A stretch of DNA of 64,000 nt from Candidatus Sulfopaludibacter sp. SbA3. GTDB taxonomy: Bacteria; Acidobacteriota; Terriglobia; Bryobacterales; Bryobacteraceae. Below the pieces are notes generated by a model. It ran no database searches and was not told where the DNA came from. It saw nothing but the letters and a program-made list of their open reading frames with translations. This document shows positions 2,883-6,471 of this stretch, piece after piece. The stretch's first letter is position 1, and each line of letters begins with the position of its first letter. Both the position numbers and the translations under genes were made by a program. The stretch is taken from positions 372,001 through 436,000 of the forward strand of contig CAMDCN010000002.1 in assembly GCA_945890485.1 (NCBI GenBank). The letters are read 5' to 3'.

Positions 2883-4991
2883 CTACTTGCCGCGCCGCCA
2901 AGTCCATCCAACTAGGAGAAATCCGACCAACGCCAGCCCCGCACCCCAGAAAGCCGTCGCCGGACGATAGACCATCTCCACCCGATGCGCTCCCCCTTCC
3001 ACAACTACCCCCCGCAGGGCCCCATAAACCTCCAATATCTCCGCCGGTTGACCATCGACCGTCGCCGACCAACCTGGAAAGTACGTATCCGACAACACCA
3101 CCAGCCCCCGGCACGCCAACTTTGCATCGATCGCTACCCGGTTCGCCCGGTACGGCAACTGCAGAGCCACCCGCTCCTCTCCCCCACACAGCACCAAAGC
3201 CGGAGCCGCCCCCACCATCACCGCCTCCTCCCGAGCCGAGAACCCCTCCGAATCCAATCGCTGGCTCACCTCACCCCGGGAACCCACCGAACTCACCCGG
3301 TGCACCACCCACGCCCGCGGCAACGCCGCCGGATTCGAGAAGATCTGCAAACCGCTCCTACTATCTGCAACTTTCACTAATCCAGGCCGCGGCGCTTTCC
3401 CGCCGACGTAGAAGTTAATCCCCAGCAAATCGTGCATCCGAGGCTTCCAAGTCTCCAGTTCCAACAGGTTTTCCGTCACACTCGCGCCGAAACCCTGCTG
3501 CGTCGGAATCCCATGCCAATCCCCAAAGTTGTAGGGAATCTCCGCATCAGAAATACCCACCCGCACCGGTACGTTCTGCGCCCGCAAAAAGCTCGCGATG
3601 TCGCCGTGATGATACAGCCGGTCCAGATTTCCCGGGATATTCTCCCGCGTCAACCGGTTCGCCATCCCGACGGAAAATACGCTCCCCCATTCCATCATCG
3701 CCAGCACCACCAACGCCCCCGCCGCCAACTCCATCGACACGGCTCGCCGCCAAGCTGCCACGAGAACCGCCGCACCCGCCAAAGCCCAAAAGCCAGTAGC
3801 CCCACCTCCGGCCAGCAAACCTCCCGCCACCATCGTCCCTGCCACCCACGCCGGCCCGCGCCAACCCCTCCGCCGCAACGCATCCACGCCATACGCCGCC
3901 AACGGACCCATCGCGAATCCCAACAAAACCAGCGCTCGCGCCGGCACCCGCGCCTTCCCGAACACGGGAGCCACGGCATACAACACGCCATGTACAAAGT
4001 TTCCGTTCGCCAACGACAATACAATCCCCGCCGCCCCCAAACCCACCAGCCACCGAACCTGCGGCGCCCGCCGCCACCCCGCCAACACCCCCAGCATCAC
4101 CAGTGAAAAACCCACCACCCCCACAAATGGGTCAATATGCACACGCGGCCGTGGAGTCACCACTCCCCAAGCCGCCTCCAAACTCCACGCAAACTTCTCA
4201 TGCACCACATACGGAATCGGCTCGTTCCAGCGCAACGGGTCCGTCACCCCCGCCCAACGCTTCGCCAATGGAGCATACTCCTGCGCCGGAAGAATCTGCC
4301 AGGCCCCCACAAGCAACATCCCCGCCGCCGCCATGGCCGCCAACTGCCAGCGCACCCCTCGCAGCAAGGCCACAATCCAAACTCCCGCGACCGCCGTCGA
4401 AACGTAGATCGGTACTTCGTGATGGCCGCTCCACCACATCACCCCCACCAACGCCCCCGACATCGTCGCGCTGAACACCGGCGTCTTCCCCCGCATCGCC
4501 CGGAAGAGAAACAAGATGACCAACGGCAGCCATACGGCCGAATTCAAAATCTGCGGCCATTCCGTTCCCGCCATAAACCCGCTCAGCGAAAACGTCAGCC
4601 CCCCCAGGATCGACGCCCCCCGGCTCCGCTTCCAATCCCGGCATAACCAATAGCAGAACAGCGCCGCCTGAAAATGCAGCAGTACCAAATACCAGTGCAC
4701 CGTAGTCACGCTGAGCTTCCCTTCGCGGAACGGCGCCAAAGCCAGCAGCCAGTTCGCCGGATACGCCACCCCACTCACCTGCCCCAAAAAAGGCTGCCCC
4801 ATCCATTGGTAGGGATCCCAAAGCGGAAACCGTAGATGCCGCCACTCGGCCGCCTGAAAATGAAGCCGGGGAAAGTCGAAATTGGCCAGGTCCGGGCTGT
4901 CCAGAAACGAATACTGGCTGGTGAGCGTCAAACGCCAATAGAAGCCAATACACAGCAGGAACAGTAGTAGTGGCGGCGCGAGTCTTCGCAT
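2883..4991 (-). CDS. YfhO-like polytopic membrane protein
   Basis: A 702-residue integral membrane protein with many hydrophobic segments. It has an N-terminal anchor (MRRLAPPLLLFLLCIGFYWRL), then SPDLANFDFPRLHF and PLWDPYQWMGQPFLGQ. An early acidic loop of this type followed by a P-L-W-P/D-Y segment is characteristic of the YfhO family and of GT-C-type glycosyltransferases. The soluble region from about residue 450 to 660 includes RVWVVH-type beta strands and VLSDTYFPGWSATVDGQPAEI, a periplasmic domain motif typical of YfhO proteins, followed by a last transmembrane helix (AGLALVGFLLVGWTWRR). The family is thought to act in lipid-linked sugar transfer or cell-envelope glycosylation. The substrate is unknown. 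It is divergent from the HPF-like gene. Confidence 0.75.
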   Translation of the reverse strand: MRRLAPPLLLFLLCIGFYWRLTLTSQYSFLDSPDLANFDFPRLHFQAAEWRHLRFPLWDPYQWMGQPFLGQVSGVAYPANWLLALAPFREGKLSVTTVHWYLVLLHFQAALFCYWLCRDWKRSRGASILGGLTFSLSGFMAGTEWPQILNSAVWLPLVILFLFRAMRGKTPVFSATMSGALVGVMWWSGHHEVPIYVSTAVAGVWIVALLRGVRWQLAAMAAAGMLLVGAWQILPAQEYAPLAKRWAGVTDPLRWNEPIPYVVHEKFAWSLEAAWGVVTPRPRVHIDPFVGVVGFSLVMLGVLAGWRRAPQVRWLVGLGAAGIVLSLANGNFVHGVLYAVAPVFGKARVPARALVLLGFAMGPLAAYGVDALRRRGWRGPAWVAGTMVAGGLLAGGGATGFWALAGAAVLVAAWRRAVSMELAAGALVVLAMMEWGSVFSVGMANRLTRENIPGNLDRLYHHGDIASFLRAQNVPVRVGISDAEIPYNFGDWHGIPTQQGFGASVTENLLELETWKPRMHDLLGINFYVGGKAPRPGLVKVADSRSGLQIFSNPAALPRAWVVHRVSSVGSRGEVSQRLDSEGFSAREEAVMVGAAPALVLCGGEERVALQLPYRANRVAIDAKLACRGLVVLSDTYFPGWSATVDGQPAEILEVYGALRGVVVEGGAHRVEMVYRPATAFWGAGLALVGFLLVGWTWRRGK

Positions 4992-5050
4992 AGAAGGCCA
5001 GTTATCACTCTAGCGCCCCCTTCGTTCCCGTGTTGCCGCTCAGGACACCT

Positions 5051-5371
5051 ATGCAAATACAACTGAATAGTGATAGCTCCGTCGCCTTCAACCAGTCCGT
5101 GTCCGAAGAAACCGAAGCCATACTGCGCAGTCAATTGGACCGCTTCGCCTCCCATTTGACAAGGCTGGAAGTCCACCTCAGCGATGTGAATGCCGAGCGT
5201 GGCGGAGACGATGATAAACGCTGTCTGCTCGAAGCGCGACCGGCCGGGAGAGACCCCGTCGTCGTTACGCACGATGGCCCTTCGATTGCACTTGCTACCC
5301 GTGGCGCTGCCCAGAAAATGAACCGTCTTTTGAACAGTCTCTTTGGCCGCCTGGAGAACAAACAATCATGA
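5051..5371 (+). CDS. HPF/RaiA-like ribosome-associated protein
   Basis: A 106-residue protein of the ribosome hibernation factor (HPF/RaiA, S30EA) superfamily. The pattern LEVHLSDVNAERGGDDDKRCLLEARP resembles the central beta-hairpin of the family, and ALATRGAAQKMNRLLNSLFGRL resembles its last amphipathic helix. Such proteins bind the decoding and mRNA channel of the 30S subunit and silence ribosomes. I chose the ATG at 5051, preceded by AGGA at a good distance; the longer frame from 5030 adds seven poorly supported residues. Its stop overlaps the start of the next gene as ATGA (5368-5371), so the two products are probably made together. It is short and lacks the C-terminal dimerisation domain of long HPF. 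Confidence 0.72.
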   Translation: MQIQLNSDSSVAFNQSVSEETEAILRSQLDRFASHLTRLEVHLSDVNAERGGDDDKRCLLEARPAGRDPVVVTHDGPSIALATRGAAQKMNRLLNSLFGRLENKQS

Positions 5372-6471
5372 ACGCCTCAATTAGCCCCGACCAACTGAAA
5401 GCACTCCTCCAGCCCCACGACCCTCCCTGCCTCTCCATCTACCTGCCTACTCACCGACGGCACCCCGAGAATCAGCAGGATCCCATCCGCTACAAGAATC
5501 TCGTCAAGGAGCTCGAGGCCGCTCTCAAGTCGGGCTTCCCCGATGCCAACGCTGAGGAACTCCTCGCCCCATTCCACGCCCTCGGCGCCGATGCAGACTT
5601 CTGGAACCACACGTGGGATGGTCTGGCCGTTCTCGGGGCCGCGGGAAGCTTCCATACTTTCAAGTTGCAACGCACCGTCCCCGAACTGGCGACCGCCGCC
5701 ACCTCGTTCCACTTGAAACCCCTTCTCCGCATCCAGCAGTCCGCCGATCGCTACCAAGTCCTCGCCCTCAATCGCCGTGAGATCCGCCTCTTCGAAGGCG
5801 ACCGAGATCAACTCGACGAAATCACCCTCGCCGACGGCGTCCCCGCCACCATCACCGACGCCCTTGGCGACGAACACTCCGAGCCCCACCAGACTGTCGC
5901 CTCCTATGGCGGCGCCGCACTCGGATCCAGCATGCGTCACGGCCACGGCTCCAAAGCCGACGACGCCGATAACGACGAGGAGCGCTTCTTTCGCGCCATC
6001 GACCGCGCCATCCTCGAACAGTACTCCCGCCCGTCCGGCATGCCCCTCATCCTGGCCGCCCTCTCCCAGTACCATACGCCGTTCCGCAATGTCAGCCACA
6101 ACCCCTTCCTCTACGAAGACGGAATAGAAGCTGACCCGGCCGCCCTCTCGGCAGCCGACCTCTGCGAACGCGCATGGAAAGTAATTGAGCCGGAATTCCG
6201 CGCCCGAACGAAAAAGCTCGCCGATACCTACGGCGCCGCCCACGGACGCGCCCTCGCCTCGGACGACCTCGAATACGCCACCAAGGCCGCTTCGGACTCC
6301 CGCGTCGAGACCCTCCTCGTCGAAGCGGACCGCATCCTCCCTGGCCCCGACGGCGACGATCTCCTCGACGATCTCGCCGAACTCGTCCTCCAGCGTGGCG
6401 GACAAGTCGTTGTCGTCCCCGCGGCTGACATGCCCACCACCACGGGCCTCGCGGCCACGTTCCGCTTCTAG
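5368..6471 (+). CDS. Bacterial archaeo-eukaryotic release factor-like protein (baeRF family)
   Basis: A 367-residue protein that I assign to the baeRF families, bacterial relatives of eRF1/Pelota. The N-terminus (LKALLQPHDPPCLSIYLPTHR) is typical of these families, with LAVLGAAGSFHTF and LPTLLRI-like strands, then YQVLALNRREIRLFEGDRD, the characteristic middle-domain strands. A histidine-rich loop SSMRHGHGSK follows near residue 190, then RFFRAIDRAILE. The C-terminal region (VETLLVEADRI, DDLAELVLQRGGQVVVVP) resembles the L7Ae-like third domain of eRF1. A GGQ triplet occurs at 344-346, but in that third domain, not in the peptide-release loop, so it is probably coincidental. Coupling by ATGA to an HPF-like gene suggests a role at stalled or hibernating ribosomes. 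That role is inference. Confidence 0.72.
   Translation: MNASISPDQLKALLQPHDPPCLSIYLPTHRRHPENQQDPIRYKNLVKELEAALKSGFPDANAEELLAPFHALGADADFWNHTWDGLAVLGAAGSFHTFKLQRTVPELATAATSFHLKPLLRIQQSADRYQVLALNRREIRLFEGDRDQLDEITLADGVPATITDALGDEHSEPHQTVASYGGAALGSSMRHGHGSKADDADNDEERFFRAIDRAILEQYSRPSGMPLILAALSQYHTPFRNVSHNPFLYEDGIEADPAALSAADLCERAWKVIEPEFRARTKKLADTYGAAHGRALASDDLEYATKAASDSRVETLLVEADRILPGPDGDDLLDDLAELVLQRGGQVVVVPAADMPTTTGLAATFRF

Follow-up and report, generated by a model that had tools for sequence, protein, structure and literature searches.

The DNA analysed here, called the window throughout, is a stretch of 64,000 nucleotides from the 7.1 Mb genome of Candidatus Sulfopaludibacter sp. SbA3. It contains a short gene of the HPF/RaiA type that overlaps a downstream baeRF gene. 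The features considered are the following.

2883–4991, minus strand: divergent gene for a YfhO-family membrane protein, left edge of the HPF-baeRF unit
5042–5045, plus strand: Shine–Dalgarno-like AGGA ahead of HPF (by eye)
5051–5371, plus strand: short HPF/RaiA-type protein, 106 aa, in one subfamily with chain v of A. baumannii 7M4Z
5275–5290, plus strand: TGGCCCTTCGATTGCA, 16 nt, sigma-54-like −24/−12 element inside the HPF coding sequence, a lead only
5353–5356, plus strand: Shine–Dalgarno-like GGAG, 11 nt ahead of the baeRF ATG (by eye)
5368–5371, plus strand: ATGA, overlap of HPF stop and baeRF start, also in L087, L096 and the L088 remnant
5368–6471, plus strand: baeRF family 3 protein, 367 aa, three-domain, Balon-type
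5461–5466, plus strand: codons for H32-P33, which aligns with the HP motif of Balon
5884–5955, plus strand: codons 173–196, a loop, mostly disordered in the model, ahead of a long middle-domain helix
6468–7076, minus strand: convergent metallophosphoesterase gene, right edge of the HPF-baeRF unit

The preliminary description had reported a four-base overlap between an HPF-like and a baeRF-type reading frame, and this is borne out: the HPF-like ORF has its start codon at 5051 and its stop codon at 5369–5371, and ATGA at 5368–5371 is common to both ORFs. Since the neighbouring genes are divergent (YfhO) and convergent (metallophosphoesterase), a two-gene transcription unit would be the simplest reading. 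Stop and start codons overlap in five of the ten pairs with HPF upstream, the window included (ATGA in three, a 1-nt TGATG/TAATG overlap in two); the baeRF start is ambiguous in L130 and L145, and gaps separate the genes in L110, L125 and L135. The window genome has a single match to baeRF family 3 and one strong match to the short HPF, the next HPF match having an E-value of 0.009 and an internal stop. Elsewhere in the window, two tandem near-alike ORFs on the minus strand (1029–1595 and 1620–2186) resemble the Uma2 family by eye.

The 367-aa protein certainly belongs to baeRF family 3. Its score of 159 bits against Pfam PF18845 (cut-off 31.5) and its full-length profile match to Balon both agree with the baeRF-type assignment made earlier. 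Judged by sequence and by predicted fold, Balon is the nearest solved relative: phmmer relates the two with an E-value of 2.4e-16 and profile searches with 2.5e-33 and, over the full length, 1.7e-38, at an identity of 21–24%. The AlphaFold model of the window protein (46 sequences, mean pLDDT 86.5) gives a three-domain fold collinear with that of Balon (Z 24.1 over 334 residues), followed by the mycobacterial Balon homologues (Z 21.2 and 15.5), aRF1/eRF1 (Z 14.2) and Pelota, for which 11.6 is the best value among the matches listed. The likeness to Pelota suggested earlier thus holds for domain order and general fold, but the fold is nearer to Balon. The NCBIfam ribosome hibernation factor model NF052287 matches all 46 aligned baeRF relatives (E <= 0.001). 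The window protein itself scores 165.5 bits, half of the equivalog cut-off of 330, and should therefore be considered a relative of Balon rather than its equivalog.

In Balon the HP motif contacts the decoding centre according to the text of PMC10901736; H32-P33 of the window protein is aligned with it, and P33 is found in 80 and H32 in 63 of 81 baeRF proteins. A second conserved element lies where aeRF1 has its GGQ loop. Here the window protein carries HGHGSK (residues 191–196), at the end of a loop predicted to be disordered over residues 173–194 (pLDDT < 50). H191 and G194 are present in 81/81 proteins, G192 in 64/81 and K or R at place 196 in 79/81 (K 62, R 17, G 2), while Gln does not occur at this place in any of the 81. 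The mean conservation of the loop, 0.742, is similar to that of the rest of the protein (0.662–0.768), and the 181–190 stretch is 10 or 11 residues long in 67/81. A tentative correspondence between HGxGGK and the aeRF1 loop motif, HGRGGQ, is based on the position ahead of the helix. A profile search of the window baeRF family did not reach eRF1, and the loop region of Balon does not align with the conserved baeRF loop in profile alignments. The earlier statement that a recognisable release loop is lacking is consequently correct for GGQ, but the loop as such is conserved and not unrecognisable. We have considered and rejected an aeRF1-type release factor with a catalytic Gln, given that GGQ is absent and that no Gln is found at place 196.

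The conservation of this loop bears on whether the baeRF protein could act like Pelota in rescuing stalled ribosomes, perhaps hydrolysing peptidyl-tRNA by means of the HGxG(G)K loop, with HPF then parking the rescued ribosome. The loop and the remainder of the protein are conserved to about the same degree, and the nearly constant loop length is unlike the divergent loops of unconstrained length to which inactivity is tied in the text of PMC6514570. We nevertheless regard a rescue function as improbable: besides the missing Gln and a fold closer to Balon than to Pelota, Balon, to which the protein is most closely related, acts in hibernation, and the text of PMC10901736 describes it as keeping the catalytic site inert and preventing premature peptide release. 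The same text describes Balon as likewise devoid of GGQ, with a lasso loop that wraps A2602. The baeRF loop would be expected to contact the ribosome without hydrolysing peptidyl-tRNA, and to represent a distinct type of loop.

Taken alone, the window HPF matches PF02482 only weakly (21.4 bits for a cut-off of 23.7, E 4.2e-4). Once its relatives are included the assignment becomes firm at the sequence level, PF02482 matching 40 of 41 members of the subfamily (E <= 0.01); the HPF family proposed in the preliminary description is thus weakly recovered from the single protein and firmly from the group. The top solved chain for the subfamily is the ribosome-bound 7m4z_v (profile E 2e-32, TM 0.84), which phmmer also matches to residues 1–103 of the window protein (E 7.2e-16), and 8rd8_D, the RaiA seen with Balon, is a distant match (E 4.7e-4). 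The closest solved relatives of the pair are therefore a ribosome-bound HPF (7M4Z) and Balon, in line with the earlier view that both proteins come from ribosome-bound families. From its homologues, including 7M4Z, the window HPF may be expected to bind the ribosome.

No S30AE_C domain was matched in the 106-aa protein, whose fold stops after the second helix. The genome encodes a long HPF of 182 aa, with an S30AE domain and a C-terminal S30AE_C domain, beside rpoN (the rpoN-hpf locus, L001), and a 100S-type function would thus have a gene of its own. We have rejected the window HPF as a long, 100S-forming type, since it has no C-terminal dimerisation domain and the long form is encoded elsewhere. 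The 100S particles that had been proposed as a possible target are unlikely because the window HPF is a short form. The text of PMC8263017 describes A. baumannii hpf on 70S ribosomes and no 100S images.

Some unusual HPF-like proteins were encountered in other genomes. In L010, L022, L023 and L024, from other Acidobacteriota, short HPFs end in a long C-terminal tail that is rich in Lys and Ala and resembles histone H1 (by eye). Divergent short HPF-like ORFs at L014:1441-1776 and L019:1435-1737 directly precede genes for what look by eye like a TerC-like membrane protein and an HtpX-like peptidase; Pfam gave no match for the L014 HPF-like ORF itself. A bacterial ORF (L017:871-1791) has two CBS matches and, after them, an HPF-like domain with a weak score; archaeal HibA is arranged in this order too, with four CBS domains.

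How often the two genes occur together was determined in a scan with one genome per species, in which the best 80 of 535 baeRF relatives were used, so that the counts concern the nearest relatives. Among these 80 loci, an HPF of the window subfamily lies in the flank in 45 and is a same-strand neighbour in 43, upstream in 9 and downstream in 34 (L163, with HPF 2.5 kb off, was scored as none; L137, with HPF on the opposite strand, was left out). No HPF was present in the flank of 31 scored loci, and L111, L113, L118 and L128 had too short a flank to be scored. Four of the 43 adjacent HPFs are broken or cut (L123, L126, L148, L162). A tblastn repeat over the 80 loci recovered these 45 again and, in addition, the L088 remnant. 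A search for HPF elsewhere in 34 of 35 genomes without a same-strand neighbour (L113 left out; L111, L118 and L128 with short flanks) showed the subfamily in five, including the opposite-strand L137, and thus elsewhere in 4/33.

In a tree of 81 baeRF proteins, all cases with HPF upstream fall in one half and all those with HPF downstream in the other; the basal split between these halves has a support of 80 and is not starred. The gene-order states need 16 changes on this tree compared with 31.6 in shuffles, and 16 was reached in 0/200. Pairwise distances of HPF and baeRF are correlated with r 0.759 (40 pairs, from 39 of the 45 HPF loci plus the window), a value not corrected for organism phylogeny, and r was at most 0.249 in 2000 shuffles. 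Within the phylum the picture is different. Of 199 Acidobacteriota genomes sampled, 16 have the HPF, 13 the baeRF and two both, and the genes are adjacent in the window genome only (8 of the 18 other HPF matches were checked for a neighbouring baeRF). In 61 genomes of the family, HPF was matched in 12 and baeRF in 21; both occur in three: in the window genome, in G202, where an HPF remnant adjoins baeRF, and in G206, where 667 kb separate the two. The pairing is conserved widely across phyla, yet rarely within the Acidobacteriota samples, and the conservation of gene order put forward earlier as a check is obtained at the first level but not at the second. Chance adjacency of the two genes is ruled out by the 43/80 loci in two clade-specific orders.

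Close relatives of the window baeRF were found in six of 19 genomes of the genus, and in these HPF is intact in two (the window and L087), reduced to a 3′ remnant in one and absent in three. The remnant, in L088 (by its coordinates the same genome as G202), consists of codons 71–106 and the ATGA overlap; in L089-L091 no HPF was found at the baeRF locus or elsewhere in the genome. The simplest history would be a single ancestral loss, as L088-L091 group together on a starred branch next to the window and L087 in the 81-protein tree. A second, separate loss by deletion between the first HPF codons and baeRF is visible by eye in the more distant L094, in which only these first codons (MQIRLNSDSRVAVQ) persist at L094:4897, 95 nt ahead of baeRF. 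The pairing is thus not obligate. That baeRF was retained where HPF was lost suggests that it is worth keeping without HPF, and, with such natural losses in sister species, a comparison of relatives could show whether HPF is needed.

The loss of HPF might be linked to a sigma-54-like element within its coding sequence. TGGCCCTTCGATTGCA has the −24/−12 layout of the sigma-54 site consensus, and RpoN is encoded in the window genome. In the sister genomes TGGCCCYYCAATTGC is found 35–40 nt ahead of baeRF in L089-L091 (35 nt in L089) and 93 nt ahead in L088, the leaders of L088-L091 being poorly conserved outside it. For a single 15-nt segment this conservation has a P of ~0.004, uncorrected for the number of segments; the neutral rate used is 0.506, the proportion of four-fold sites that remain invariant among these four genomes. 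TGGCACTCTGGTTGCA, common to both genomes compared, lies 34 nt ahead of a response-regulator gene in G202. The sigma-54-like pattern is not enriched genome-wide, with 18 matches compared with 19 for the reversed control. When the regions upstream of 81 baeRF starts were scanned from homologous start codons, the core pattern appeared seven times where 1.43 were expected; six of these are in the genus and one is in L108. We have therefore discarded sigma-54 control of the whole baeRF family, and likewise the near-match TGGCCCCTCACATGCA, 27 nt ahead of HPF in L096, which does not fit the full pattern. A candidate internal sigma-54-like promoter surviving the loss of HPF is a weak lead.

Taken at face value, such a promoter would fit a situation in which HPF and baeRF are neighbours by descent only, separately regulated and used, with baeRF transcribed from its own promoter inside HPF. 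The four sister genomes that keep baeRF and the element after losing HPF, the RpoN gene and the site ahead of the response-regulator gene agree with this, but the adjacency recurs in two gene orders, the codons overlap in half of the HPF-upstream pairs, the pattern is unenriched and its conservation is modest and uncorrected. We consider such separate use very improbable.

A further aspect concerns the neighbouring genes in other phyla, where the scan covered 91 of 136 neighbour proteins listed. The order ATP synthase alpha, baeRF, HPF, gamma occurs in L107, L114, L142 and L164, with HPF and gamma overlapping by 4 nt; L104 has alpha, another gene, baeRF and gamma, without HPF. One side each of this arrangement is present in L118 and L162, and an alpha/beta-type subunit is located downstream in L132, L136 and L150. 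AtpR in L114 marks an N-type ATP synthase. A PPK2-like gene cluster near baeRF recurs in seven loci, and Pfam PPK2 was confirmed for L107. The text passages searched in PMC6514570 and PMC10901736, and the literature listings searched, make no mention of an ATP synthase link. One could imagine that baeRF family 3 and its dedicated short HPF form a hibernation module that is linked to energy status and coupled to ion-motive force. In several phyla the pair would have been inserted between alpha and gamma in ATP synthase operons of the N-type (Na+-type), and polyphosphate kinase 2 close by would mean that ribosome parking is made together with low-energy machinery. In the window's genus, baeRF would have its own sigma-54 promoter within the HPF gene, which would have let HPF vanish without silencing baeRF. 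This combined proposal is speculative and we would rather doubt it in its entirety. The N-type ATP synthase link is testable, as is the loop conserved where aeRF1 has GGQ.

The present data are in our opinion very probably explained by a two-gene ribosome-hibernation unit in which a Balon-type A-site plug is made together with a 70S-type HPF. According to this model the short HPF would occupy the mRNA channel of the 30S subunit and the tRNA sites, on one 70S ribosome only, and the baeRF protein would enter the A site of an idle ribosome, be it this one or another. The N domain of baeRF, carrying the HP motif, would touch the decoding centre without mRNA, the middle-domain loop would reach the peptidyl-transferase centre without causing peptide release, and the C domain would face the factor-binding side. 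Ribosomes finishing HPF would start baeRF via the overlap so that both are made together. HPF would be an optional helper, baeRF being kept when HPF is lost. The gene layout, the families, the predicted fold, the conserved residues and the recurrence and loss of the pair are what the present analysis shows directly. It is from the homologues that ribosome binding, co-binding, the lack of peptide release, co-translation and any role of EF-Tu may be anticipated. The suggestion that the two proteins act on the same particle is favoured by the presence of Balon and RaiA on one 70S ribosome and by the recurrence of the pair in 43/80 loci, but obligate joint action is unsupported, with four sisters having baeRF only.

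Much of this has been foreshadowed. The text of PMC6514570 (Burroughs and Aravind 2019) reports an HPF neighbourhood for several baeRF-1 families and proposes that baeRF, together with HPF, blocks the A site without catalysis, and that of PMC10901736 (2024) describes Balon and RaiA bound to a single P. urativorans 70S ribosome and RaiA as the most frequent gene neighbour of Balon genes. With the neighbourhood and the co-binding both published, the idea of a hibernation pair is essentially known. Our additions are the details of the pairing, the HPF losses, the conserved loop, the sigma-54-like lead and the ATP synthase neighbourhood.

Compared with known systems, the window HPF shares the S30AE domain with the long HPF of its own genome, but the latter has 182 aa with S30AE_C and lies beside rpoN, whereas the former has 106 aa and lies beside baeRF. 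A. baumannii hpf in 7M4Z (PMC8263017) is of the same short subfamily; unlike in the window, no baeRF partner is discussed in the passages searched from that paper. With aeRF1 and Pelota the baeRF protein has domain order and fold in common, but it contains neither GGQ nor NIKS, the HP motif standing where NIKS / loop A would be, and its fold scores are lower than for Balon. The baeRF-1 clade as presented in the text of PMC6514570 resembles it in Pfam assignment (baeRF family 3) and in having an HPF gene neighbour; the loop is divergent there and conserved in the window group, whose congeners show loss of HPF. The likeness to Balon of Psychrobacter urativorans (8RD8/8RDV/8RDW) comprises the three-domain aeRF1-like fold, the HP motif, the absence of GGQ and a partner of the RaiA family, the differences being the conserved loop and the RaiA partner (8rd8_D), which is of another HPF subfamily. 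Balon is further marked by A-site binding, contact with EF-Tu(GDP) and a bL27 trap. In Acidobacteriota, the window would bring together, as one coupled unit, a factor of the Balon type and a particular HPF subfamily of the 70S type.
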